Origin: Methylomonas koyamae
GTDB lineage: Bacteria > Pseudomonadota > Gammaproteobacteria > Methylococcales > Methylomonadaceae
Direction of reading: 5' to 3'
Assembly: GCF_001644025.1 (NCBI RefSeq)
Contig: NZ_LUUK01000226.1
Coordinates: 1 to 64,000 of the forward strand
DNA: 64,000 nt
Shown here: positions 29,745 to 44,213 of the stretch, piece after piece
Numbering within the stretch: the first letter of the stretch is position 1
Layout: every line of letters starts with the position of its first letter
Translations under genes and position numbers: made by a program
Notes under the pieces: model-generated
The model's input: only the letters and a program-made list of their open reading frames with translations
The model's database searches: none
What the model was told of the DNA's origin: nothing

Positions 29745-29850
29745 TTTTCCAAGAAAACTCACCTGCTTTTGACCGCCGTCGACAAGTTAAATCAATATGC
29801 TGCAAGCAGGGGCGCACAAATTATTCGGCAAAAATAAAGGAGGAATTGTT

Positions 29851-30630
29851 ATGTTTTTTCTCGAAAAACTGTATGGACTCACAAAGTTGTTTGGTTTACT
29901 AGTGCTTCTTGGCGCTTGCAAAACTGCCAATGCATCATTCTTTTGGGCTCCTATTTACGATCTAACCAAGCCCATCACTAGCATCGTATGGGTGGATAGC
30001 ACTCCATTTACCTGGTGTTTGATTGGTGGAGAATGCCAGAGTCTTGGCTCTTATCGGGCCTTTTATGGTTCAAATGGGTACGGAGCAACGAGTTCAAGTA
30101 TTTTTTACCAATCCGCACCCGCCGGAACCCAAAAAACCCCATTGGACGTTGAAGCATCGTTAGCGCCAAATCCGGCCGGCGTCTTTGATTGGGGGCAATT
30201 CAATGTTCCTCAATTTTTGCCGTATGATCTGGGTAGCAATCTGTCAGGAACGTTTAAAATTAAATTAACACTGAATAGAGAACTCGCTGATTTAGAAGAA
30301 GTTTATATTGCTATTTTTCAAAACCGCGATCCAGACAATATCTTGCTTGGGGATTGGGAATTGCTCAACCAAAAGTTATTAGCCGATGACACTATTTTCG
30401 AAGGGATATTCAATTCGGAGGCGGGGTTATCTACTAGATTATTTGTTCATGGATTCGCCTTTAACGCTCTCGAATATCACATTACTGTCAGCGAAGTGCC
30501 TATTCCGAGTTCGGCACTGCTTTTGTTAACATCGTTACTATTTTTTTGCCGGAATTGGTATTTTCGTAAGTCCGTACGGCGGAAGCCTACAGGCGGATCG
30601 CCTCTTGGCATCCGCCCTTGTATGATCTGA
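29851..30630 (+). CDS. Secreted surface protein with VPIP/PEP-CTERM-like anchor
   Basis: 259 residues. Start at 29851 has a strong GGAGGAAT upstream. Signal peptide MFFLEKLYGLTKLFGLLVLL ending near ACKTANA; a cysteine there also leaves lipoprotein processing open. The middle is a beta-rich region with no family I know. Near the end, VPIPSSALLLLTSLLFF followed by basic residues is the layout of a PEP-CTERM-type sorting signal (Pro motif, hydrophobic helix, Arg cluster), read by exosortase. Odd: about 14 further residues (from ~residue 246) are encoded by a hairpin repeat, so the native end was probably overwritten. Base composition is low in GC compared with neighbours. Confidence 0.65.
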   Translation: MFFLEKLYGLTKLFGLLVLLGACKTANASFFWAPIYDLTKPITSIVWVDSTPFTWCLIGGECQSLGSYRAFYGSNGYGATSSSIFYQSAPAGTQKTPLDVEASLAPNPAGVFDWGQFNVPQFLPYDLGSNLSGTFKIKLTLNRELADLEEVYIAIFQNRDPDNILLGDWELLNQKLLADDTIFEGIFNSEAGLSTRLFVHGFAFNALEYHITVSEVPIPSSALLLLTSLLFFCRNWYFRKSVRRKPTGGSPLGIRPCMI

Positions 30631-31667: not shown

Positions 31668-32231
31668 CGCTTGGTCGCCAGCCGTCAACGCCGGCACTCG
31701 CCAGCCCGGCCTGTTCGCCGCAATCGGCATCTGGCGACTCCGATGAATTTGCGATCCACTTCGCAAATCCGTTAGCCTGAAGGCGGGCATTTCTCAGCCG
31801 TCGCTTCCATCAAATCGCGGGCAAGGCAAATTCGTTTGTTAGCCTCTTCACAGATTGGACTTGTCCTTCCAGCGCCTAAATGCCCGTCGGCGCCTCGCGA
31901 TCAATCGAGCTTGCAACAGAGCGACAACGCTTGCCGATTTTCTCAAAAAGATACAGAAAACCCGAGTGGCCTTGGAATAAAGCGTACCCCGGCCAAGCTT
32001 AGCCGCCAATCCGGCCGCGCCACCATCCGCCACGCGTAAAATCCCTCCCGATTTGGAAACGCTCCCGATTCCCCCGCGCTACCGGCGGAAATTGCTCCTC
32101 TACACTTTCTCTTCGGAACCGCACCGGCCAAGTTCGGCCAACCCTGCCGCAAGCAGCGCGGCGGCGCTGTTCCGGCACCCGAACCATTCGGCTATCGATA
32201 ACCCGGTATTGTTTAACCTCGCGGGGTAACC
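31668..32231. other. Gene-free spacer upstream of the ThDP/SDR/citrate-synthase-like operon
   Basis: No convincing gene: the open frames are short and biased. One hairpin is seen, ATTTGCGA/TCGCAAAT at 31747-31754 and 31761-31768, without a T-run. The region must carry the promoter of the operon starting at 32232; I could not identify a convincing -35/-10 pair. GGGG at about 32221-32225 serves as the ribosome site of the first gene. Confidence 0.5.
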
Positions 32232-34100
32232 ATGAGCGCGCAAATCTCCCTGATTCATCACCATACAGACCTAATCGACGACATCGCCGACCCCAGACAT
32301 TCGCAGCCGGCGGACATCGCCGATCTGCTGGTCGCCTATCTGGAACAGATGGGGGTCGAATACGTTTTCGGCGTGCCCGGCGGCGCCATCGAGCCGCTCT
32401 ACAACGCCATCGCCCGTAGCAGCCGGCGCGGCGGTATCCGTCACGTGCTGGCCCGCCACGAAGCCGGCGCCGCCTTCATGGCCGACGGCTACGCTCGGGA
32501 AACCGGCAAAATCGGCGTCTGCTGCTCCACATCGGGTCCCGGCGCCACCAACCTGATTACCGGCGTGGCCTGCGCTTACGACAACAACATTCCGATGTTG
32601 GTCATTACCGGCCAACCGGCCCTGCCGGCGTTCGGCAAATACCCCTTGCAAGAATCCTCGTGCACCGGCATCAACACGCTGGGCATGTTCCGGCATTGCA
32701 CGCTATACAACTCGTTGGTCTCCCACCCCAAGCAATTGGAAACCAAACTGGTGACCGCGCTGCAACGGGCGATTCGTGCCCCGCGCGGACCGTCGCATCT
32801 GACCGTGCCGGTGGATGTGTTCCGCAGCCCCTGCAGCCGCGGCACACCGTCCTACAACCTGGAGCAACTGCTGGCGCCGTCGTCGATGGTGGACGACGAC
32901 GCCATCACCGAATTGCGCGACATGCTGGCCGAGGCCCAAAACGTCGTTCTGCTGATCGGCGGCGGCTGCGGCGAAGCGATCGGTTCGATTCTGCAATTCG
33001 CCGCGCTGAAAGGCACGCCGCTAGTCACCACGCCCGACGGCAAAGGCCTGGTCAATCCACGCCATCCGTTGTTCCGGGGCGTGTTCGGTTTCGGCGGTCA
33101 CGAAACCGCCGACGCCGCGCTGCGAGACAAAGCAGTCGATTTGATCCTAGCCATCGGCGCCAACATGGGCGAGTGGAACAGCGGCGGCTGGAGCGACAGC
33201 CTGCTCAACGAGCGCTTGGTTCATATCGACGAGTCCGAGGAAAACCTGTCGCGTACGCCGATGGCCCGCCTGCACGTGCGCGGCCGGATCTTGTCGGTGT
33301 TCAGCCGGCTGGTCGAGCACCTGCATCACCAGCAAAAAACCGACAATTTCGAATATGCCCGGCAGCGCGCCTCCCGCGAACACAAGGTCGACCAACACGA
33401 TCCCCACCAACTGTTAAGCGCGCCGGAAAAATATCAAAGCGATGCCACGCCGCTGAAACCGCAGCGCTTGATGCGCGAATTGGGCCAACTGTTTCCGCCG
33501 ACCACCCGCTTTTTGGCCGACACCGGCAATAGCGTGTCGTGGGCCGTACATTATCTGCACCCCGGCATCGACCGACGGGTCGGCGAACGCCGATTGGGCG
33601 GCGGCGGCCGCAAGATCACGCCGGGCCTGCGCCGCACCGACGGCGGCTGGCTGCGGGTAACGATGAATTTCGCGGCGATGGGTTGGGCGATCGGCGGCGC
33701 GATCGGCACCGCGATCGCCAACCGCCGTCAGCCGGTAGTCTGCATCACCGGCGACGGCAGCATGTTGATGAACGGTCAGGAAATTTCGGTCGCGGTCGCC
33801 GAGCGTCTGGCGGTGGTGTTTATTGTGCTCAACGACCAGTCGCTAGGCATGGTCAGACACGGCCAGCGCTTGGCCGGGGCCGAACAAATCGGTTGCGATT
33901 TGCCGCCCAGCGACTTCGCGGCCCTGGCCCGCGCCCTCGGCGCCGACGCCTACACGATCCGCTCGCCGCACGACTTGACCAATCTGAATATCGCCGCGAT
34001 CTGCGCACGCAAGGGGCCGACCCTGCTTGACGTGCTGATCGATCCCGACGAAGAGCCGCCGATGAACGTGCGGATGCGCGTCCTGACCAACACCTTATAA
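32232..34100 (+). CDS. Acetolactate-synthase-like ThDP-dependent enzyme
   Basis: 622 residues. Three-domain ThDP enzyme of the acetolactate synthase/benzoylformate decarboxylase type: an N-terminal pyrimidine-binding domain with the activating Glu in LARHEAGAAFMADGYAR, a central domain (LIGGGCGEAIGS), and a C-terminal diphosphate domain with GDGSMLMNGQEISVA...LNDQSLGMVRHGQ. Such enzymes decarboxylate a 2-oxoacid and pass the acyl unit to an acceptor. Compared with ordinary IlvB there is an insertion near residues 445-470 rich in Gly and Arg (VGERRLGGGGRKI), just before the diphosphate domain. No small regulatory subunit follows; instead an SDR and two citrate-synthase-like genes do. A special C-C bond-forming role is inferred. 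Confidence 0.85.
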   Translation: MSAQISLIHHHTDLIDDIADPRHSQPADIADLLVAYLEQMGVEYVFGVPGGAIEPLYNAIARSSRRGGIRHVLARHEAGAAFMADGYARETGKIGVCCSTSGPGATNLITGVACAYDNNIPMLVITGQPALPAFGKYPLQESSCTGINTLGMFRHCTLYNSLVSHPKQLETKLVTALQRAIRAPRGPSHLTVPVDVFRSPCSRGTPSYNLEQLLAPSSMVDDDAITELRDMLAEAQNVVLLIGGGCGEAIGSILQFAALKGTPLVTTPDGKGLVNPRHPLFRGVFGFGGHETADAALRDKAVDLILAIGANMGEWNSGGWSDSLLNERLVHIDESEENLSRTPMARLHVRGRILSVFSRLVEHLHHQQKTDNFEYARQRASREHKVDQHDPHQLLSAPEKYQSDATPLKPQRLMRELGQLFPPTTRFLADTGNSVSWAVHYLHPGIDRRVGERRLGGGGRKITPGLRRTDGGWLRVTMNFAAMGWAIGGAIGTAIANRRQPVVCITGDGSMLMNGQEISVAVAERLAVVFIVLNDQSLGMVRHGQRLAGAEQIGCDLPPSDFAALARALGADAYTIRSPHDLTNLNIAAICARKGPTLLDVLIDPDEEPPMNVRMRVLTNTL

Positions 34101-34113
34101 GCGGGGCGACTTC

Positions 34114-34872
34114 ATGAACAAACTCAGCGGTAAAACCGCGTTGATTACCGGCGGCTCCAGCGGCATCGGCCTGGCCAGCGCCAAACTATTCCTCGCCGAG
34201 GGTGCCCGGCTGGCGATCACCGGACGGGACCCGGAACGCTTGGAAACCGCCCGCCAACAGTTGGGCGACGACACGCTGGCCCTCGTCAGCGAGGCCGGTT
34301 GTCTGAACGACATCGAAGCCCTGCTGGAACAGGTCGGCCAACATTTTCAAACTTTGGACATTCTGTTTCTGAACGCCGGCATCGCCGAACCGACACCGTT
34401 GGAACTGACCACCGAAGACCAATTCGACCGCATCATGCGGGTCAATTTCAAGGGCGTGTTTTTTACGATCCAAAAAGCCTTGCCGATGCTCAAACCCGGC
34501 GCCTCCATCATCGTCACCACGTCGATCACCAACCGTAGCGGCACCCCCAATTTCAGCGTGTACGCCGCCAGCAAGGCGGCCTTGCGTTCGATGGTGCAAT
34601 CGTTGGGATTGACCTTGATAGGACAAGGCATACGGGTCAACGCGATCAACCCCGGCCCTATCGATACCGAAGGCTTCAACCGCCTGCCGTTACCCGGCGA
34701 CGTGTTTCAAGCCATCAAAACCGATATCGAGGGCCGTTCGCCGATCAAGCGCTTCGGCGCGCCGGAGGAAGTCGCCAAGGTCGCGTTGTTTTTGGCGTCC
34801 GACGATTCGGCCTATGTCGTCGGCGAAGAAATCGTCGTCGACGGCGGCATCAGTTTAGTTTGTTTACCCTAG
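34114..34872 (+). CDS. Short-chain dehydrogenase/reductase (SDR)
   Basis: 252 residues, classical SDR. The cofactor loop is TGGSSGIGLASA; the absence of an acidic residue soon after the second strand, where ITGRDPERL has Arg, suggests NADP(H). The catalytic Ser lies in TTSITNRSG and the YxxxK motif in SVYAASKAAL, with the NAG motif (LNAGIAE). The closing segment DDSAYVVGEEIVVDGG is typical. It probably reduces the keto product of the preceding ThDP enzyme or oxidises an alcohol. It starts 13 bases after that gene and ends 8 bases before the first citrate-synthase-like gene. Confidence 0.92.
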   Translation: MNKLSGKTALITGGSSGIGLASAKLFLAEGARLAITGRDPERLETARQQLGDDTLALVSEAGCLNDIEALLEQVGQHFQTLDILFLNAGIAEPTPLELTTEDQFDRIMRVNFKGVFFTIQKALPMLKPGASIIVTTSITNRSGTPNFSVYAASKAALRSMVQSLGLTLIGQGIRVNAINPGPIDTEGFNRLPLPGDVFQAIKTDIEGRSPIKRFGAPEEVAKVALFLASDDSAYVVGEEIVVDGGISLVCLP

Positions 34873-34880
34873 GAGGCATT

Positions 34881-35690
34881 ATGAGCGCCGATCAAACCAT
34901 CCCGACGATACGCACCCGCATCTGGCGGGAAGAAGCCGAGTCCGACAACCGTTTCGCCACCCGAACCGCCTATTGCCGAGGCTACGACGTTTACGGGGAA
35001 ATGCTGGGCCAGGCCCGCTGGACCGATCTCTTGTATATGCTGTTCATGCCGGAAGCGCCGAGCGCCGAACAATCCGCCCTATTGGACAGCTTGGCGCTGG
35101 CGCTGGCGAATCCGGGACCGCGCGACCCGGCCGTGCATGCGGCCATGTGCGGCGGCGTGTGCGGCTCGCCGGCCGCCTCGTCGTTGATGGCGGCGTTGGC
35201 GGTCGGCGCCGGTCAGGCCGGCGGCGCTCGCGAAGTCTACAACGCGGCGAACGGCTGGCTGCGCTGCGGCACCGATTTGAACGCCTGGCGGCGTTGGCTG
35301 ACCGAGTCGCTGACCGCCGATCCGGGCAGTGTCTGGCCGGCGATCGAGCATCCGTCCGGGTTCGACGATCATGGCGCCGGCACCTCGCTACCGGTACGGC
35401 AAACCCTGGACTGCCTGGCGGAATACGGCGTTGGGCCGCGCCTGCCTTGGCTGATCGAAAACCTGGCGGCGCTGCAAGCACTGGCCGGCCGGCCGTTGGC
35501 ACTGTCCGGCGTCGCGGCGGCGGCGCTAGCGGATTTGGGTTTTGACCCGGAACAAAGCGAAATGCTGTATCTGCTGTTGCGTCTGCCGGGCGCGGCGGCG
35601 CATGCCTTGGAACAACGGCCGCTGGGTTACAAGAAATTTCCGTTCGGCGTCGTCGAATTGGAAACGCCACCGGTGGAGCAAGCGGCATGA
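34881..35690 (+). CDS. Divergent citrate-synthase/citryl-CoA-lyase-like protein, copy 1
   Basis: 269 residues, about the size of short citryl-CoA-lyase-type members of the citrate synthase superfamily. Landmarks: TAYCRGYDVYGEML (the family's YRG-Y-D-I-x-x-L), then a helical body and DLGFDPEQSEMLYLLLRLPGAAAHALEQ. The HGGA segment, which carries an active-site His in citrate synthases, reads AGQAGGAREV, and the later G-F-G-H position reads GFDDHG. So catalytic histidines seem replaced, though a nearby His might substitute. AGGAGG ribosome site 5 bases upstream. The stop overlaps the start of copy 2 by ATGA, suggesting a heteromer of two subunits. Confidence 0.75.
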   Translation: MSADQTIPTIRTRIWREEAESDNRFATRTAYCRGYDVYGEMLGQARWTDLLYMLFMPEAPSAEQSALLDSLALALANPGPRDPAVHAAMCGGVCGSPAASSLMAALAVGAGQAGGAREVYNAANGWLRCGTDLNAWRRWLTESLTADPGSVWPAIEHPSGFDDHGAGTSLPVRQTLDCLAEYGVGPRLPWLIENLAALQALAGRPLALSGVAAAALADLGFDPEQSEMLYLLLRLPGAAAHALEQRPLGYKKFPFGVVELETPPVEQAA

Positions 35691-36502
35691 GGGGCGCAAA
35701 ATTACTCGACCGCCACGTCGGCGTCTTGAAAAGCCGGATGGGCAAGTTTTACCCCGGCAGCCACGTGGTGTTTCGCGGCCGCGATTTGCTGAGTGAATTA
35801 AAAGACATGGACTGGTTGGAATTGTACGTGTTCGGCATCACCGGCCGCCACTTCGACCCAGCCCAACTGAAATTGCTGCACGCGATCTGGATTTACACCA
35901 GTTATCCCGACGTCCGGCTGTGGAACAATCGGGTCGCGGCCTTGGCCGGCAGTACCCGCAGCACCGGGACGCTGGGTCTGGCGGCGGCCCTGGCGGTATC
36001 GGAAGCGGAAATATACGGCGGCGGCATTTTCGTACGATCGATCGACTTTTTCAGCCGCGCGTTACGCCAACTCGAACAAGGCGGCGATCTGGAAACCTGT
36101 ATTCGCGAGGAACTGGCCACCCACCGCGGCATCGGCGGTTACGGCAGGCCGCTAGTCAACGGCGACGAACGCATCGGTCCGTTGTTGGATTTGGCGAAGG
36201 CATTGGGCCTGGACCAAGGCCCTTATCTAAAGTTGGCCTTGGCGGTCGAGCAAATGTTGTTGAACGGCCGCTGGCGGATGAAAATGAATTACGCCGCGCT
36301 GGTCGCCGCCTTGGGCAGCGACCTGGGCATGAGCGCGCGCGAGCTGTATTTGTTCATCTTTCCGGTATTTCTGGCCGGAATGCCGCCGGGTTATATCGAA
36401 GCCAGCGAACGCCCGGCCGGCACGCTCTACCCTACGCCGTGCGACGGCATTGTTTACGACGGATCGCCTCGCCGCACTTGGCATCCCGCAAAGCCCGACT
36501 AA
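35687..36502 (+). CDS. Divergent citrate-synthase/citryl-CoA-lyase-like protein, copy 2
   Basis: 271 residues, homologous in layout to the preceding gene. Landmarks: SHVVFRGRDLLSEL (citrate synthase RG-D-x-x-x-L), GSTRSTGTLGLAAALAVSEAEIYGG (which corresponds to the region before the first catalytic His) and GIGGYGRPLVNGDERIGPLL (G-F-G-H-P-x-x-x-x-D-P-R of citryl-CoA lyases, with His replaced by Arg). The C-terminal part keeps the large helical domain (MNYAALVAALGSDLGMS). Coupled to copy 1 by ATGA. The pair may bind an acyl-CoA and one keto acid but perform altered chemistry. Last gene of the operon. Confidence 0.75.
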   Translation: MRGAKLLDRHVGVLKSRMGKFYPGSHVVFRGRDLLSELKDMDWLELYVFGITGRHFDPAQLKLLHAIWIYTSYPDVRLWNNRVAALAGSTRSTGTLGLAAALAVSEAEIYGGGIFVRSIDFFSRALRQLEQGGDLETCIREELATHRGIGGYGRPLVNGDERIGPLLDLAKALGLDQGPYLKLALAVEQMLLNGRWRMKMNYAALVAALGSDLGMSARELYLFIFPVFLAGMPPGYIEASERPAGTLYPTPCDGIVYDGSPRRTWHPAKPD

Positions 36503-36622: not shown

Positions 36623-38770
36623 ATGCATCGCCGCCTGTTCTTCCTCGCCGCGGTTTGCGTCAGCGCAAGCCCCTCGGCGCAACCGGTTTCGACCGAGGAA
36701 GAAGAAAAAGCCCTATCGCAAATCTACGGCGGCGAAGAAATGGTCAGCATCGCCAGCGGCTACAAACAGCCGATTTCCAAAGCGCCGTCAATCGCGACGG
36801 TCATCACCGCGGAAGACATCAAGTCGATTGGCGCGACCGATATCGACGAGGCGTTGGAAACGGTTCCCGGCTTGCATGTGGAGCGCAACACCATAGGCTA
36901 CAACCCGATTTACACCTTTCGCGGCATTTTTTCGCAGTTCAATCAGCAAGTGCTGATGATGGTCAACGGCATCCCGATTACCAATTCCTATACCGGCAGC
37001 CGAGGCGAGGCCTGGGGCGGCATGCCGCTGCGCGATGTCGCCCGGATCGAAGTGGTGCGCGGTCCCGGCTCGGCGGTGTACGGCGCCGACGCCTTCGCCG
37101 GCGTCATCAACGTCATCACCAAAACTCGGCAAGACATCGAGGGCACAGAGGTGGGCGGCCGGGTCGGCAGCTTCGACACGTACGACGGCTGGGCGCTGCA
37201 CGGCGGCGAATGGGCCGGCTTCGACGTGGCGTTGGCGCTGGAATACCACAAGACCGCCGGCCAGGATTCGATCGTCGATGCCGACCTGCAAAGCTATTTC
37301 GACAGTCTGGGCCTGGGGCCGAAAGCCTCGTTGGCACCGGGACCGCTCAATCTGTCGCGCGACAACCTCGACGCCCGCATCGATTTATCGCGCGGTCATT
37401 GGCGGTTTCGCGGCGGCCTGCAACATCGCGGCGATTTCGGTAACGGCTCGGGCGTCGCTCAGGCGCTGGACCCGATCAACCGCTACGCCAGCGACCGCTG
37501 GAATGCCGACGTCACCTACCATAACGACGATATCGATAACTGGGATCTGACCACCCAAGCCAGTTATTTCGAAACCACCCAGGAAATAGAACGCAATTTG
37601 ACACTGTTTCCGCCCGGCACCACGTTGCCGATCGGCGGCAACGGCCAGATCGGCCTCGGCGCGCCGGTGACCTTCCCGAACGGCTATATCGGCAACCCGG
37701 AAGTCTGGGAACGCCATATTCGCATCAACCAATCGATTGCTTACACCGGTTTTCAGCAACATTTATTGCGCAGCGGTATCGGCTTCAATTACGACAGTCT
37801 GTTCCGGGCCAAAGTCAGTCAGAATTTCGGTATCGACCCGACCACCGGCCTGCCGATTCCGTCGCTACCGGGCATTCCGCTCACCGATGTTTCGGGCACC
37901 GCGTCAACCTTTATCCCGGAAGTCGACCGCAAGGTCGCCTATTTGTTTTTGCAGGATCAGTGGAATTTCGCCAACGACTGGACGCTGACCGCCGGCGCCC
38001 GCTACGACCGCTATTCGGATTTCGGCAACACCTTCAATCCGCGCGCCGCGTTGATCTGGGAGGCCGACTACAACCTGACCGCCAAGTTGATGTACGGCTC
38101 GGCGTTCCGCGCGCCGTCGTTTCAGGAGATGTACATCATCAACAACCCGGCGCAGCTCGGCAATCCGCGCTTGAAGCCGGAAACGATGGAAAACGTCGAG
38201 CTGGGTTTCGACTACCGGCCGACCGACAGCCTGCGCCTGGGCTTGAACTTCTTCAACTATTGGTGGAAGGATATTATCCGCTTCGTGCCGGACAGCGGTT
38301 CGACGACGTCCACCGCTCGGAACACAGGCACACAACAAGGTTACGGCACCGAGTTCGAAGCGGAATGGCAGGCCGCCGACAATCTGAAACTGATCGGCAA
38401 TTACGCCTACCAACGCAGCCGCGACGAAGCGCTGAATCACGATGCCGGCTATGCGCCGCATCACCAGATTTATTTGCGCGCCAATTGGGAATTCCTGCCT
38501 GACTGGTCGCTCAGCCCGCAAGCCAAGTGGATAGTCGGCCGCGAACGCAGCTACGGCGACGCACGCGAGCCGGTAGCCGACTATACTTGGGTCGACTTGA
38601 CCCTACGCCGGCAAAATCTGGCCAAACATGTCGAAGTGGCGTTCTCGGTTCGCAACCTGTTCGACGTCAGCGCCCGCGAACCCAGCTTGGTTGGCAGCCC
38701 GACCGCCATCCCCAACGATTTGCCGCTGGCGACCCGCAGTTTTTACGGGGAAATCAGCGTTAACTTTTAG
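36623..38770 (+). CDS. TonB-dependent outer-membrane receptor
   Basis: 715 residues. Signal peptide (MHRRLFFLAAVCVSAS), a plug domain (about 45-160) with VITAEDIKSIGATDIDEALETVPG and RIEVVRGPGSAVYGADAFAG, then a beta-barrel whose last strand ends ...YGEISVNF, with terminal Phe as usual. A TonB-box is not obvious, but the region near residues 38-45 (EEMVSIAS) may serve. Such receptors import scarce ligands (metal chelates, cobalamin, sugars); the ligand is unknown. The gene is followed by a substrate-binding protein and a hybrid kinase, an arrangement that couples uptake to sensing. Confidence 0.93.
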   Translation: MHRRLFFLAAVCVSASPSAQPVSTEEEEKALSQIYGGEEMVSIASGYKQPISKAPSIATVITAEDIKSIGATDIDEALETVPGLHVERNTIGYNPIYTFRGIFSQFNQQVLMMVNGIPITNSYTGSRGEAWGGMPLRDVARIEVVRGPGSAVYGADAFAGVINVITKTRQDIEGTEVGGRVGSFDTYDGWALHGGEWAGFDVALALEYHKTAGQDSIVDADLQSYFDSLGLGPKASLAPGPLNLSRDNLDARIDLSRGHWRFRGGLQHRGDFGNGSGVAQALDPINRYASDRWNADVTYHNDDIDNWDLTTQASYFETTQEIERNLTLFPPGTTLPIGGNGQIGLGAPVTFPNGYIGNPEVWERHIRINQSIAYTGFQQHLLRSGIGFNYDSLFRAKVSQNFGIDPTTGLPIPSLPGIPLTDVSGTASTFIPEVDRKVAYLFLQDQWNFANDWTLTAGARYDRYSDFGNTFNPRAALIWEADYNLTAKLMYGSAFRAPSFQEMYIINNPAQLGNPRLKPETMENVELGFDYRPTDSLRLGLNFFNYWWKDIIRFVPDSGSTTSTARNTGTQQGYGTEFEAEWQAADNLKLIGNYAYQRSRDEALNHDAGYAPHHQIYLRANWEFLPDWSLSPQAKWIVGRERSYGDAREPVADYTWVDLTLRRQNLAKHVEVAFSVRNLFDVSAREPSLVGSPTAIPNDLPLATRSFYGEISVNF

Positions 38771-38822
38771 CCGACGAATTGTCGCCGCGACTGGCTCATT
38801 CATGCATTATTCAGGAGTTATT

Positions 38823-39776: not shown

Positions 39777-42700
39777 ATGAAGCAGCGATCCAGGCCACGC
39801 CTGCGGGGCGCGAGTTTTTTACAACAACTGACGGTCACCTTCAGCGTCGGTTTATTGGTGATCTCGCTGCTGTCCTCGTTCGGCATTTCGACACTGTCCT
39901 ATCGCATCGTCCGCGATCAATGGATCGCCCAGGGCCGACAATCCACCGAAGCCTTCGCCGCCCAAAGCGCGCTGGCCTTGCTCTACGCCAGCAAGGAAAA
40001 CGCCGAGGAGCCGGCCCGGCGATTTCTGTCCTTCCCGGACGTACGCGGGGTTGCGATTTTCAACACCGCCCACCAAGCCTTGTTCGAGCGCGGCGACACC
40101 ACTCAGCCCGACGGCGGGGCCGCGTCCGGCTGGCCGGACGACCTGCGTCTGATCCAGGAAACCGATCAAGCCTGGTATTTCGCGGCGCCGGTGTTCGCGC
40201 GCGGCGGCGACCAGGACGCGTCGCCGTTCGAGGCCCAAGCCGAACCGGAGTTGATCGGTTACGTGCGCCTAGCCCAGGGCAAGCAGTCGCTAAACGTGAT
40301 GAAAAAACAGATACTGTGGGCGACGCTGCTGGTCTCGGGCGGCGCGGCCATGCTGTTCTTCTTGTTCCTGCTGGCGATGACCCGCCGCCTGACCCTGCCG
40401 ATTCAACTGCTGGCCAAGCAAATGGGCAAGGCATCGGCCGGCGCGAAAAACGTCAGAGCCAAATTGCAGGGCCCGCGCGACATCACCGATATGGGTAGCG
40501 CCTTCAATACGATGATGGAAGTGCTGGAAACTCGCGAAAAGCAGTTGGAACGCGCCCGCGACACCGCGCTGGAATCGGCGAGATTGAAGGGCGAATTCGC
40601 CGCCAACGTCAGCCACGAATTGCGCACGCCGCTGAACGCGGTGCTGGGCATGTTGGAACTATTGCAGGACATGGGCCTGACGCCCAAGCAACTCGAATAT
40701 TCTATGATCGCCCGCAACGCCGGCGAAGCATTGTTGAAATTGATCGAGGACATCCTCGACTTTTCCCGGATCGAAGCCGGCATGTTGAAGCGCCAGCCGG
40801 TGGATTTCGTACTTTACGAAACGTTGGACGAAGTCGTCGAATTGATGGCCGGCCAAGCTCACCGCAAAAACCTGCAACTCCATTACGCCGTCGCCGACGA
40901 AATCCCGTTGGTGATGAACGGCGAGGCCTCCAGGGTCCGGCAAGTGCTGATCAATCTGGTCGGGAACGCGCTGAAATTTACCGAGCAAGGCGCAATCTCG
41001 ATTCGGGTGAGCGTGGAAAGCGCCAGCGCCGACCTGCATCTGCTGCGCTTCGAGGTCAGCGACACCGGCATCGGCATTTCCGCCGCCGCCCAGTTAACCA
41101 TCTTCGACGCCTTTGTACAGGCCGACGGCTCCAGCACTCGCCACCACGAAGGCGCCGGCCTGGGCCTGGCGATCTGTCGGCAACTGGTCAATCTGATGGG
41201 CGGCAAGATCGGCGTCGTCAGTCAGCCCGGCGGCGGCAGCACCTTCTGGTTTACCGTGCCCTTCGAGGCGCCTCGCGGCACTCAAGCATTGTCGGAAGCC
41301 CGCCAGGCTTATTTCGCCAATTTGCGCGTCCTAGTAATTTCCGAAAACGCCAAGATGCGCCAATTCCTGACCCAGACCCTGGAACATTGGCAAATCCATT
41401 ACCGCCACAGCGAATACGGCATTCGCGCGGTCGACATGCTGCGCTCGGCGCGCGAACAGGACCAGGCGTACCAATTCGCGATCGTCGATCTGAAAGACGC
41501 CGGCGACCTGAGTTGGCTGGATTTGATCGCTCACGATCCGGCGCTGGCCGACCTGAAAATCATCCTGCTGTCCAATCCGGGCAACACCGCCGGCCAGTCC
41601 CGCCTGCCCAACGTGGCCGCCAATCTGACCAAACCAGTACAGGTATCCAAGTTATACGACTTCATCCTGACCGTCGGCCAGGATTACCGGGAGTCCGCAC
41701 CGGTCGAAGCCATCGCCGAAACGCCGTACTCGGCCGAGTTGGGCCGCGTAATCCTGATCGTCGAGGATAACCGCGCCAGTCAGATGGTGGCGGCCGGCAT
41801 GCTGGAGCGGCTGGGCTGCGCGTACGAAATCGCCGCGTCCGGCAGCGAAGCCTTGGAATGGCTGGCGCGCAAACCCTTCGACCTGGTCTTGATGGATTGC
41901 CACATGCCGAACATGGACGGTTTCGAAGCCACTCGCCGCATCCGGCTGTTGCCGGAGCCGTTGGCGCGCATTCCGATCGTGGCGATGACCGCCAACGCCC
42001 GACAAGGCGACAGCGACTTGTGCCAGGCCGCCGGTATGGACGATTACCTGGCCAAGCCGATCAAATTGGCGCCGTTGCGCGAAAAGCTGCTGCACTGGCT
42101 GGAGAACGCCCCTGTCGCGGCGACGCCCAATATCCGCGCCAACGCGACGCCCAACACCTTGGACGACCAGGTCTTGCGCCAATTGCGCGACGAAATCGGT
42201 CAAGGTTTCGAGCGGATGGTTCGGTTTTATCTGGAAGATTCGCCGGTCCAAATCCAACAATTGGCTTTGGCCTTGACGACCAACGACGTACGACAGGTTC
42301 GCGAACTCGCCCATAGCCTGAAAGGCGCCAGCCGCAACCTCGGCGCCGATAAGCTGGCGGCCGTCGCCAAGCAGCTGGAAGATGCCGGAGAGCAGCATAG
42401 CCTTGAAAACAGCGAAGCGCTGCTACGCCAATTGCGCAAGGAATATCAATTCATCGAACAATTGCTGCTACGCGAAATCGGCACCGAAACGATCGCCGAC
42501 GCCGCGCCCGCGCCGCAAGGTCCGCGCATTCTGGTAGCCGACGACGACCGCGCGATGCGCTTTGCGTTGCAGGATATTCTGGAAAAGGACGGCTACATCG
42601 TCGATCTAGCCGGCACCGGTCAGCAAGCCGTCGCTCTTTGTCAACAGCAAATGGCCGATCTGATCCTGATGGATGCGCTAATGCCGGAGATGGACGGCTT

Positions 42701-44213
42701 CGAAGCCTGCCAAAAAATCCGGGCGCTGCCGAACGGCGCCGAAGTGCCGATTTTGATGATCACCGCGCTGGAAAACGAACATTCGGTGGAGTTGGCCTTC
42801 TCGATAGGCGCCAACGACTACATTCCCAAGCCGATCCATTTCACGGTGTTGCGTAAACGCATCGCCCACTTGCTGGATGCCAGCCGCAGCCAACGCACGC
42901 TGAACCGCCTGGCTTATCACGACCCATTGACCAATCTGGCCAACCGTGCCCAGTTCATGGACAAACTGAACGCGGTTATCCAGGCCGACGGCATCCACCC
43001 GCAATTGCACGCGGTGTTATTTCTGGATTTGGACCGCTTCAAGCTCACCAACGACACGATGGGCCACGATGTCGGCGACCAATTGTTGAAAGCCGCCGCC
43101 GAGCGCATCCAGAGCTGCGTGCGCAAGGAAGACATGGTATCCCGCTTCGGCGGCGACGAATTCATTCTACTGTTGGAAAAAATCGGCAACGCCCAGGTCG
43201 CGGCGGCGGTCGCCGACAAAATCTGCAACACCATCGCCAAGCCCTTCCTGCTGATGGAGCAAGAGTTCTATATCAGTTGCAGCATCGGTATCTCCTTGTT
43301 TCCGGCCGACGGCATCGACAGCGGTTTGTTGATCAAACACGCCGACACCGCGATGTACCGCGCCAAGGAACAGGGCAACACTTTTTGTTTTTACGAAGAC
43401 AGCATGGAATTCGCGGTATCGTCGAAACTGCGGTTGGAAAGCGATTTGCGCCGGGCCTTGCAACGCGACGAATTCTTTCTGCACTACCAACCACAAATCG
43501 ATCTGAATTCCGGCCGCATCATCGGTGCCGAAGCGTTGATCCGCTGGCAGCATCCGACACTAGGCTTGGTGCCGCCGGATGCCTTCATCCCGGTGGCCGA
43601 GGAAATCGGTCTGATCGAAACGATAGGCGCCTGGGTATTGCGCGAAGCCTGCCGGCAAAACCGTTTGTGGCAGCAAACCGGCTATCCGCCGTTCAGCGTT
43701 GCCGTCAACGTCTCGGCACGCCAGTTGGATCACGAGGGTTTCGCCGATCAGGTGACCGCGATCGTCGCCGATACCGGCCTGCCGCCACAATACGTCGAGT
43801 TGGAATTGACCGAGAGTCTGTTCATCCGCCACCCGGAAAAAAAGCGCGAGATTCTGGCGCAACTGCGCGAAGCCGGCATGCAAATCTCGATAGACGACTT
43901 CGGCACCGGCTATTCCAGCTTGAACCAACTGAAGCATTTTGCCTTCGACAAGCTGAAAATCGACCGCTCCTTCGTCGCCAACATCATGCACGACGCCGAC
44001 GCGGCCGCCATCGTGCTGGTGATTATTTCGATCGCCCGCATCCTCAAGTTCAAGGTCATCGCCGAAGGCGTGGAGACCGAGCAACAAGCCCAATACCTGA
44101 TGCAAAACGATTGCGACGAAGCCCAAGGTTACTTGTTCGGCAAACCGATGCCGGCCGAAGACCTCACCGCCATCCTGGAGCGCGCCGGACAGCTTTACCG
44201 CATTGCCCATTAA
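39777..44213 (+). CDS. Hybrid histidine kinase-receiver-HPt-GGDEF-EAL membrane protein
   Basis: 1478 residues. Order: helix 1 (about 16-40), periplasmic domain (41-178), helix 2 (180-200), HAMP (201-255), HisKA with H280 in NVSHELRTP, HATPase (385-500; NLVGNALKF, DTGIGIS, GAGLGLAICRQL), a weak receiver (515-635, D571 present, acidic pair incomplete), receiver 2 (D707), HPt (H846 in AHSLKGASRN), receiver 3 (D966), GGDEF (1125-1129, RFGGDEF) and EAL (E1252, EALIRW). A phosphorelay appears built in, ending in control of c-di-GMP turnover. The binding-protein gene ends 6 bases upstream, so the periplasmic domain may read that protein. The domain number is unusually high. Confidence 0.95.
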   Translation: MKQRSRPRLRGASFLQQLTVTFSVGLLVISLLSSFGISTLSYRIVRDQWIAQGRQSTEAFAAQSALALLYASKENAEEPARRFLSFPDVRGVAIFNTAHQALFERGDTTQPDGGAASGWPDDLRLIQETDQAWYFAAPVFARGGDQDASPFEAQAEPELIGYVRLAQGKQSLNVMKKQILWATLLVSGGAAMLFFLFLLAMTRRLTLPIQLLAKQMGKASAGAKNVRAKLQGPRDITDMGSAFNTMMEVLETREKQLERARDTALESARLKGEFAANVSHELRTPLNAVLGMLELLQDMGLTPKQLEYSMIARNAGEALLKLIEDILDFSRIEAGMLKRQPVDFVLYETLDEVVELMAGQAHRKNLQLHYAVADEIPLVMNGEASRVRQVLINLVGNALKFTEQGAISIRVSVESASADLHLLRFEVSDTGIGISAAAQLTIFDAFVQADGSSTRHHEGAGLGLAICRQLVNLMGGKIGVVSQPGGGSTFWFTVPFEAPRGTQALSEARQAYFANLRVLVISENAKMRQFLTQTLEHWQIHYRHSEYGIRAVDMLRSAREQDQAYQFAIVDLKDAGDLSWLDLIAHDPALADLKIILLSNPGNTAGQSRLPNVAANLTKPVQVSKLYDFILTVGQDYRESAPVEAIAETPYSAELGRVILIVEDNRASQMVAAGMLERLGCAYEIAASGSEALEWLARKPFDLVLMDCHMPNMDGFEATRRIRLLPEPLARIPIVAMTANARQGDSDLCQAAGMDDYLAKPIKLAPLREKLLHWLENAPVAATPNIRANATPNTLDDQVLRQLRDEIGQGFERMVRFYLEDSPVQIQQLALALTTNDVRQVRELAHSLKGASRNLGADKLAAVAKQLEDAGEQHSLENSEALLRQLRKEYQFIEQLLLREIGTETIADAAPAPQGPRILVADDDRAMRFALQDILEKDGYIVDLAGTGQQAVALCQQQMADLILMDALMPEMDGFEACQKIRALPNGAEVPILMITALENEHSVELAFSIGANDYIPKPIHFTVLRKRIAHLLDASRSQRTLNRLAYHDPLTNLANRAQFMDKLNAVIQADGIHPQLHAVLFLDLDRFKLTNDTMGHDVGDQLLKAAAERIQSCVRKEDMVSRFGGDEFILLLEKIGNAQVAAAVADKICNTIAKPFLLMEQEFYISCSIGISLFPADGIDSGLLIKHADTAMYRAKEQGNTFCFYEDSMEFAVSSKLRLESDLRRALQRDEFFLHYQPQIDLNSGRIIGAEALIRWQHPTLGLVPPDAFIPVAEEIGLIETIGAWVLREACRQNRLWQQTGYPPFSVAVNVSARQLDHEGFADQVTAIVADTGLPPQYVELELTESLFIRHPEKKREILAQLREAGMQISIDDFGTGYSSLNQLKHFAFDKLKIDRSFVANIMHDADAAAIVLVIISIARILKFKVIAEGVETEQQAQYLMQNDCDEAQGYLFGKPMPAEDLTAILERAGQLYRIAH

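Follow-up and report, generated by a model that had tools for sequence, protein, structure and literature searches.

A widespread bacterial gene set combining a thiamine diphosphate-dependent carboligase and two rebuilt citrate-synthase-like proteins with a TonB receptor, a binding protein and a sensor may make and detect a small molecule

We analysed a stretch of 64,000 nucleotides from Methylomonas koyamae (contig NZ_LUUK01000226.1, positions 1 to 64,000; called the window below), in which genes for a thiamine diphosphate (ThDP)-dependent carboligase, a short-chain dehydrogenase/reductase (SDR) and two citrate-synthase-like proteins, CS1 and CS2, are followed by genes for a TonB-dependent receptor, a periplasmic binding protein of family PF04392 and a membrane sensor. 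The enzyme and receptor genes are conserved together and co-occur also where they are unlinked, CS1 and CS2 have lost catalytic residues of citrate synthase, and 13 congeners keep the receptor genes without the CS pair. Our explanation, whose chances we judge to be evenly divided, is that a single system both produces a small molecule and detects it. The genes are arranged as follows.

32232..34100, + strand: ThDP-dependent carboligase, 622 residues, with domains PF02776, PF00205 and PF02775; catalytic Glu77 and the GDG motif are kept
34114..34872, + strand: SDR oxidoreductase, 252 residues, an accessory member of the set
34881..35690, + strand: CS1, citrate-synthase-like, 269 residues; the HGGA His and the Asp are lost, and His157 lies near the second His site
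35687..36502, + strand: CS2, citrate-synthase-like, 271 residues; both His and the Asp are lost, and Tyr110, Arg154, D160-E161-R162 and N201 are conserved
36623..38770, + strand: TonB-dependent outer-membrane receptor, 715 residues
38802..39770 (about), + strand: periplasmic binding protein of family PF04392, with a signal-peptide-like N-terminus
39777..44213, + strand: membrane sensor, 1478 residues, with a weak sCache_4 match and HAMP, HisKA, HATPase, receiver, Hpt, GGDEF and EAL domains

The original prediction had described the first four genes as a compact operon, with gaps of 13 bases (ThDP enzyme to SDR) and 8 bases (SDR to CS1) and an ATGA overlap of CS1 and CS2. These coordinates and spacings were confirmed, but the unit extends beyond 36502: the TonB receptor, PF04392 and sensor genes continue it on the same strand. 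The CS1 start was taken as the ATG at 34881, with a TTG at 34860 as an alternative. The start of the PF04392 gene at 38802 was picked by eye; the query used began at 38799 and was one residue longer, and a longer frame begins at 38628.

A single tblastn scan (E 1e-3) of 84,980 species genomes returned 298 stretches with some CS1 relative, remote homologues possibly among them, and the best 80 were kept. Carriers among these 80 loci are Gallionella, Sideroxydans, Rhodocyclales, Aquabacterium, Herbaspirillum, Geobacter, Pelotalea, Methylomonas and a Fibrobacteres bin. The unit recurs in Methylococcales and Burkholderiales, where the original prediction had proposed to look for it; a search of plasmids gave no CS1 match. 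Parts were counted in the 55 loci of at least 18 kb. The ThDP enzyme was found in 54 of them (in four as a different, opposite-strand enzyme), CS2 in 54, the TonB receptor in 50, a sensor-like protein in 50, by matches that are unspecific, and the PF04392 protein in 42. An SDR of more than 50% identity was present in 20 of the 55, in varying positions, and the SDR is thus accessory to the set. Among 81 loci no further family recurred in more than six, bar one in ten whose representative is antisense to the ThDP gene (a shadow frame), rarer families not being annotated; by this count, which did not extend to the rest of the genomes, neither a siderophore synthetase nor an inner-membrane importer is common to the loci.

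The order of the parts was compared in the 12 relatives that have CS1 besides the window. The full order ThDP enzyme-(SDR)-CS1-CS2-TonB receptor-binding protein-sensor was present in eight (L013, L014, L015, L017, L018, L019, L022 and L023); three (L020, L021 and L024) end at contig ends, and in L016, from genome G039, CS2 is a fragment and the neighbourhood is without receptor genes. Divergent clades keep the same parts in other orders, with not every part in each fetched stretch. In the Pelotalea locus L039, CS1 and CS2 are flanked on one side by a TonB receptor and a different ThDP enzyme and on the other by two kinases and a PF04392 protein.

We scored the presence of CS1, CS2 and the binding-protein subfamily in 276 genomes sampled from the window's class. 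CS1 was found in 33, every one of which had CS2; CS2 was found in 35, one of the two without CS1 holding a fragment. The PF04392 subfamily was present in 36 genomes, comprising 29 of the 33 with CS1 and 7 of the other 243 (Fisher 2e-28, ignoring shared descent). In 8 of the 29 (G094, G127, G198, G211, G232, G235, G329 and G330) CS1 and the binding protein were on different contigs, these being drafts in which the two may still be near each other. For 13 loci picked because the binding protein was not beside CS1, a strong copy was found elsewhere in six genomes, a weak one in one and none in six. The weak genome match belongs to L039, yet a divergent PF04392 gene sits in that cluster.

Within the genus, we compared the window's genome with 35 congeners. 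CS1 was present in 5 of these 36 genomes (G000, which is the window's, G006, G007, G013 and G015), all of which have the receptor genes. An orthologous binding protein (at least 64% identity) was found in 19 of 37 genomes, namely the five with CS1, G335, a genome of the window's species that has CS2, and 13 others. In these 13 the receptor, binding protein and sensor genes lie together, and the TonB receptor is 84-87% identical to that of the window. CS1 and CS2 are absent genome-wide from the 13 (E 1e-5), and the 19.5 kb fetched from each contained none of the set's ThDP, SDR and CS genes, bar one SDR match of 34%. In trees of the TonB receptor and of the sensor, which hold four producers (G007, with its genes split over contigs, was left out), producers and receptor-only genomes are interspersed, and well-supported branches force at least two changes of state. 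The synthesis half was therefore gained or lost two or more times, with the receptor half remaining in place. No flank or upstream sequence common to producers and receptor-only genomes was found within the limited flanks available, where no match above 50% identity lay outside the cluster.

Profile comparisons identify CS1 and CS2 as remote homologues of citryl-CoA lyase, and this family homology is weak but consistent. In NCBIfam the two match citryl-CoA lyase models only (E 1.4e-14 and 6.8e-11), at scores far below the cut-offs (53.8 against 261 bits for CS1 and 41.8 against 245 bits for CS2), and neither window protein has a Pfam match at E 0.01. The CS1 sequence has citryl-CoA lyase 6HXP as its sole solved-structure match at E 1, and profiles of 76 sequences each reach that structure with E 7.8e-11 (CS1) and 1.3e-10 (CS2). 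PF00285 is detected in 54 of the 76 CS1 members (best E 2.8e-07), and the CS1 and CS2 profiles match each other with an hhalign probability of 96. The pair thus has by profile the fold family of citryl-CoA lyase (PRK06224 models; 6HXP) and of superfamily PF00285, but differs from these enzymes in consisting of two different, adjoining proteins that have lost catalytic residues and score far under the curated cut-offs.

Residue equivalence was established from profile alignments and by reading of motifs, with His274 (in HGGA), His320 (the second His) and Asp375 in the numbering of pig citrate synthase. The CS1 alignment holds the window and 75 of the 80 loci (L040, L044, L046, L062 and L101, which are truncated, fused or have odd starts, were left out), and that of CS2 the window and 75 of the 77 loci with a CS2 match (leaving out L058 and L099); counts also include 11 divergent CS1 and 13 CS2 sequences from L106-L121, giving 87 CS1 and 89 CS2. 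The original prediction had the catalytic His missing from both motifs in both proteins, which holds fully for CS2 and in part for CS1, and the catalytic Asp, which it had not mentioned, is gone as well, from all 87 CS1 and all 89 CS2. In CS2 the Asp position is occupied by Ala, Gly, Asn, Val, Ser or Thr, and a His of either motif is found in none of the 89 sequences. By motif reading, the site of the HGGA His is Tyr110 (Tyr in 86 of 89, Phe in 3); the 6HXP alignment places it at Ile114 instead, where His also occurs in 0 of 89. The second His site is Arg154 in all 89, followed by an invariant Pro155, and W79, R154, D160, E161, R162, N201 and D212 are invariant throughout (89 of 89).

The HGGA His is missing from 77 of the 87 CS1 sequences, comprising 74 of the 76 main and 3 of the 11 divergent members (the His is kept in 2 and 8, respectively). 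One divergent CS1 (L120, 10563-11384) has a full HGGA motif. The GFGHP motif is not present in CS1, but the 6HXP alignment sets His157, found in 72 of 76 main and 0 of 11 divergent sequences, on the second His; it is followed by a GF-D-P-His stretch whose His164 is present in 60 of the 76, and some His occurs within residues 153-168 in all 76 main sequences. His157 may, on this alignment, stand in for the second catalytic His. As aligned, then, CS2 has lost all of these catalytic residues and CS1 part of them, and the two proteins may form a composite site.

Two unusual CS loci were also seen. A Rhodocyclales bin (L031, 5546-12656) has in tandem a ThDP enzyme, SDR, CS1, CS2, CS1, CS2 and a further CS2. 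In G039, CS2 is split into a first part beside CS1 (L016, 10490-10708) and a remainder about 517 kb away (L119, 9631-10383); no TonB or binding-protein match was found in these fetched stretches, and the locus is perhaps a decaying copy.

The best solved relatives of the ThDP enzyme are BbmA (8X3X, 282 bits) and CsmA (8X3Z, 241 bits), followed by acetolactate synthase (6LPI, 212 bits), and an AFGKxxLQES stretch is common to the window enzyme and its BbmA/CsmA-type relatives. In NCBIfam the acetolactate synthase model TIGR00118 (302 bits) scored above the ScyA models (251 and 242 bits), all of them under their cut-offs (538 bits for TIGR00118). Across 69 rows (the window and 68 of 73 loci), E77 and G507-D508-G509 are kept in at least 97%. 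The Gly/Arg-rich insertion pointed out in the original prediction exists; it varies, being short or missing in L084, L086, L100 and L103, and is therefore no hallmark of the enzyme. Four Geobacter-type loci (L039, L045, L050 and L063) have a CS1 that is 60-62% identical to that of the window and an opposite-strand ThDP enzyme of just 33-35% identity, as if, to judge by these identities, the carboligase had been exchanged. The best solved matches belong to the CybE-type carboligases of furanolide pathways (CybE, BbmA and CsmA): CsmA and 'BpmA', which we take to be BbmA, are termed CybE homologues in PMC12395478, and PMC8777810 proposes that a CybE homologue joins phenylpyruvate and 2-oxobutanoate. 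In that paper CybF, the partner of CybE, is a 3-oxoacyl-acyl-carrier-protein-synthase-type enzyme, whereas here the partner's place is held by CS1 and CS2. A furanolide pathway was set aside, since no further enzyme family, and hence no CybF-type partner, recurs across the loci.

Solved-structure matches of the TonB receptor are CirA, PirA, BtuB and FepA-type receptors, and the profile of the PF04392 protein finds the structures 3LKV and 3LFT. Three members of this family with solved structures (VC_1101, SP1069 and CD0873) bind Phe, Trp or Tyr (PMC6816091); the window protein has the family in common with them and differs in that its gene adjoins TonB receptor and sensor genes. Among ten CS-locus sensors scanned with Pfam, four (those of the window, L026, L041 and L099) have GGDEF-EAL. 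The window's genome has a second TonB-PF04392-kinase set (L124; G000:C209:24500-44000), with 48% identity in the TonB receptor and 39% in the binding protein. G000 has no CS1 besides that of the window, so none accompanies this set; adjacent to it is a broken TonB copy, the pieces of which share 56-69% identity with the receptor of the window.

We propose that the ThDP enzyme acts on a 2-oxoacid, removing its carboxyl group and joining the remaining acyl unit to another carbonyl compound (probably a further 2-oxoacid), which would give an alpha-hydroxy-beta-keto acid or an acyloin. A CS1/CS2 heteromer of citrate-synthase fold would then convert this product, either in the rebuilt CS2 pocket (Tyr110, Arg154, DER160-162 and Asn201) or in a composite site to which CS1 contributes residues such as His157, and the SDR, where present, would reduce it. 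We infer that the product derives from an aromatic or similar 2-oxoacid. It would exit the cell, enter the periplasm through the TonB receptor and bind the PF04392 protein, which would report to the membrane sensor; in the window, the output domains are those of a phosphorelay and of c-di-GMP turnover. Because receptor, binding protein and sensor are kept with the enzymes, also where unlinked and rearranged, the product is probably one that is detected outside the cytoplasm rather than one of central metabolism, and since no common inner-membrane importer was seen, periplasmic detection is the simplest reading. Genes for synthesis and for detection are linked or co-occur, as a system that makes and senses a compound would have them, and the molecule made is presumably the one detected.

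The main rival, which we think unlikely, is a metallophore: the ThDP enzyme and CS1/CS2 would produce a chelator of the alpha-hydroxy-acid type, whose metal complex would be imported by the TonB receptor and reported by binding protein and sensor. The presence of the receptor, with its CirA, PirA, BtuB and FepA-type matches, is in keeping with this, receptor-only genomes would fit piracy, and Gallionella, Sideroxydans, Geobacter and Methylomonas, all among the carriers, are iron- or methane-metabolising genera. However, no siderophore synthetase or importer appears among the families common to the loci, the rarer ones being unannotated, and the PF04392 proteins of solved structure have aromatic amino acids as their ligands (PMC6816091). 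Rather improbable is a catabolic role, in which an outside compound would enter by the TonB receptor, be sensed by binding protein and sensor, and be broken down by the ThDP enzyme, the SDR and CS1/CS2. Catabolic operons that include a TonB receptor and are controlled by a sensor are well known, but no inner-membrane transporter is among the families common to the 81 loci, 13 of the 36 genomes of the genus have the receptor genes but neither CS1 nor CS2, and the lyase residues are missing from the pair.

Two further alternatives concern the CS pair itself. That CS1 and CS2 are non-catalytic and bind acyl-CoA or the ThDP enzyme to tune the latter, whose product would itself be the ligand, strikes us as highly doubtful. 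The absence of the Asp from both proteins would agree with it, as would the four Geobacter-type loci that pair a different ThDP enzyme with a CS1 60-62% identical to that of the window; the invariant polar residues of CS2 (R154, D160, E161, R162, N201 and D212) exceed, in our judgement, the needs of a scaffold. Barely credible is the original prediction of a self-standing route in which a 2-oxoacid is decarboxylated and the product joined to, or split from, an acyl-CoA by citrate-synthase chemistry. Homology to citryl-CoA lyase and a second His possibly retained as His157 would suit such a route, but the Asp is found in neither protein, the HGGA His is missing from 77 of 87 CS1 and all CS2, and CS2 is without either His; the SDR is present in 20 of 55 loci, and the receptor genes are conserved with the enzymes, so that the alignments and gene content speak against it.

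Several observations also weigh against a system that makes and detects its own molecule. Freely diffusing signals are not usually taken in by a TonB receptor, no recurring exporter was recognised across the loci, and receptor-only genomes also resemble users of foreign siderophores. Sensor output varies, GGDEF-EAL being absent from the sensors of L046, L057, L065, L078, L082 and L086 and from both L039 kinases, and the stretches fetched for two loci (L075 and L095) gave no match to the TonB receptor, the PF04392 protein or the sensor. Four of the 33 CS1 genomes are without the subfamily binding protein, the Fisher test takes no account of descent, and at E 1e-20 the binding protein is absent from 6 of the 13 genomes checked.

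Upstream of the ThDP gene, a CTCTACACTTT stretch at about 32098-32108 of the window, its place counted by hand, occurs in four of five aligned producers (the window, L013, L014 and L024; not L015) and could be a promoter or operator. A promoter and terminator scan was uninformative, finding 1 and 18 sites where 3.4 and 16.5, respectively, were expected. At 29797-30630 the window also encodes a 277-residue protein without a Pfam match, whose C-terminus, as we read it, resembles a PEP-CTERM anchor.

Parallels to the proposed making and sensing of one molecule exist among known systems. LuxP-LuxQ senses an autoinducer by a binding protein and a hybrid kinase, and the window set likewise has a periplasmic binding protein and a membrane hybrid sensor, but with other synthesis enzymes and an added TonB receptor. 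PfeS-PfeA is a siderophore-sensing kinase with a TonB receptor; the window set shares the TonB receptor and the periplasm-facing kinase and differs in its separate binding protein, with no common siderophore synthetase or importer seen. No description of the gene set was found in the titles and abstract openings of open-licence literature, which does not prove that there is none. The parts are of known kinds, and the gene combination and the rebuilt CS pair appear to be undescribed.

We tentatively suggest, with less than even confidence, that the set represents a new and widespread class of bacterial chemical communication, in which a ThDP carboligase works with a rebuilt heteromer of citrate-synthase fold, whose catalytic residues are non-canonical, to make a signal of a new class, a TonB-gated binding protein and a sensor relay receive it, and receiver-only strains listen in. 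The receptor-only relatives make the system directly testable, and a larger claim may become possible once the product is known. If the explanation is true, about one in eight of the sampled class genomes (33 of 276) would carry an undescribed small-molecule system, whose synthesis enzymes would represent the citrate-synthase fold reused with different residues.

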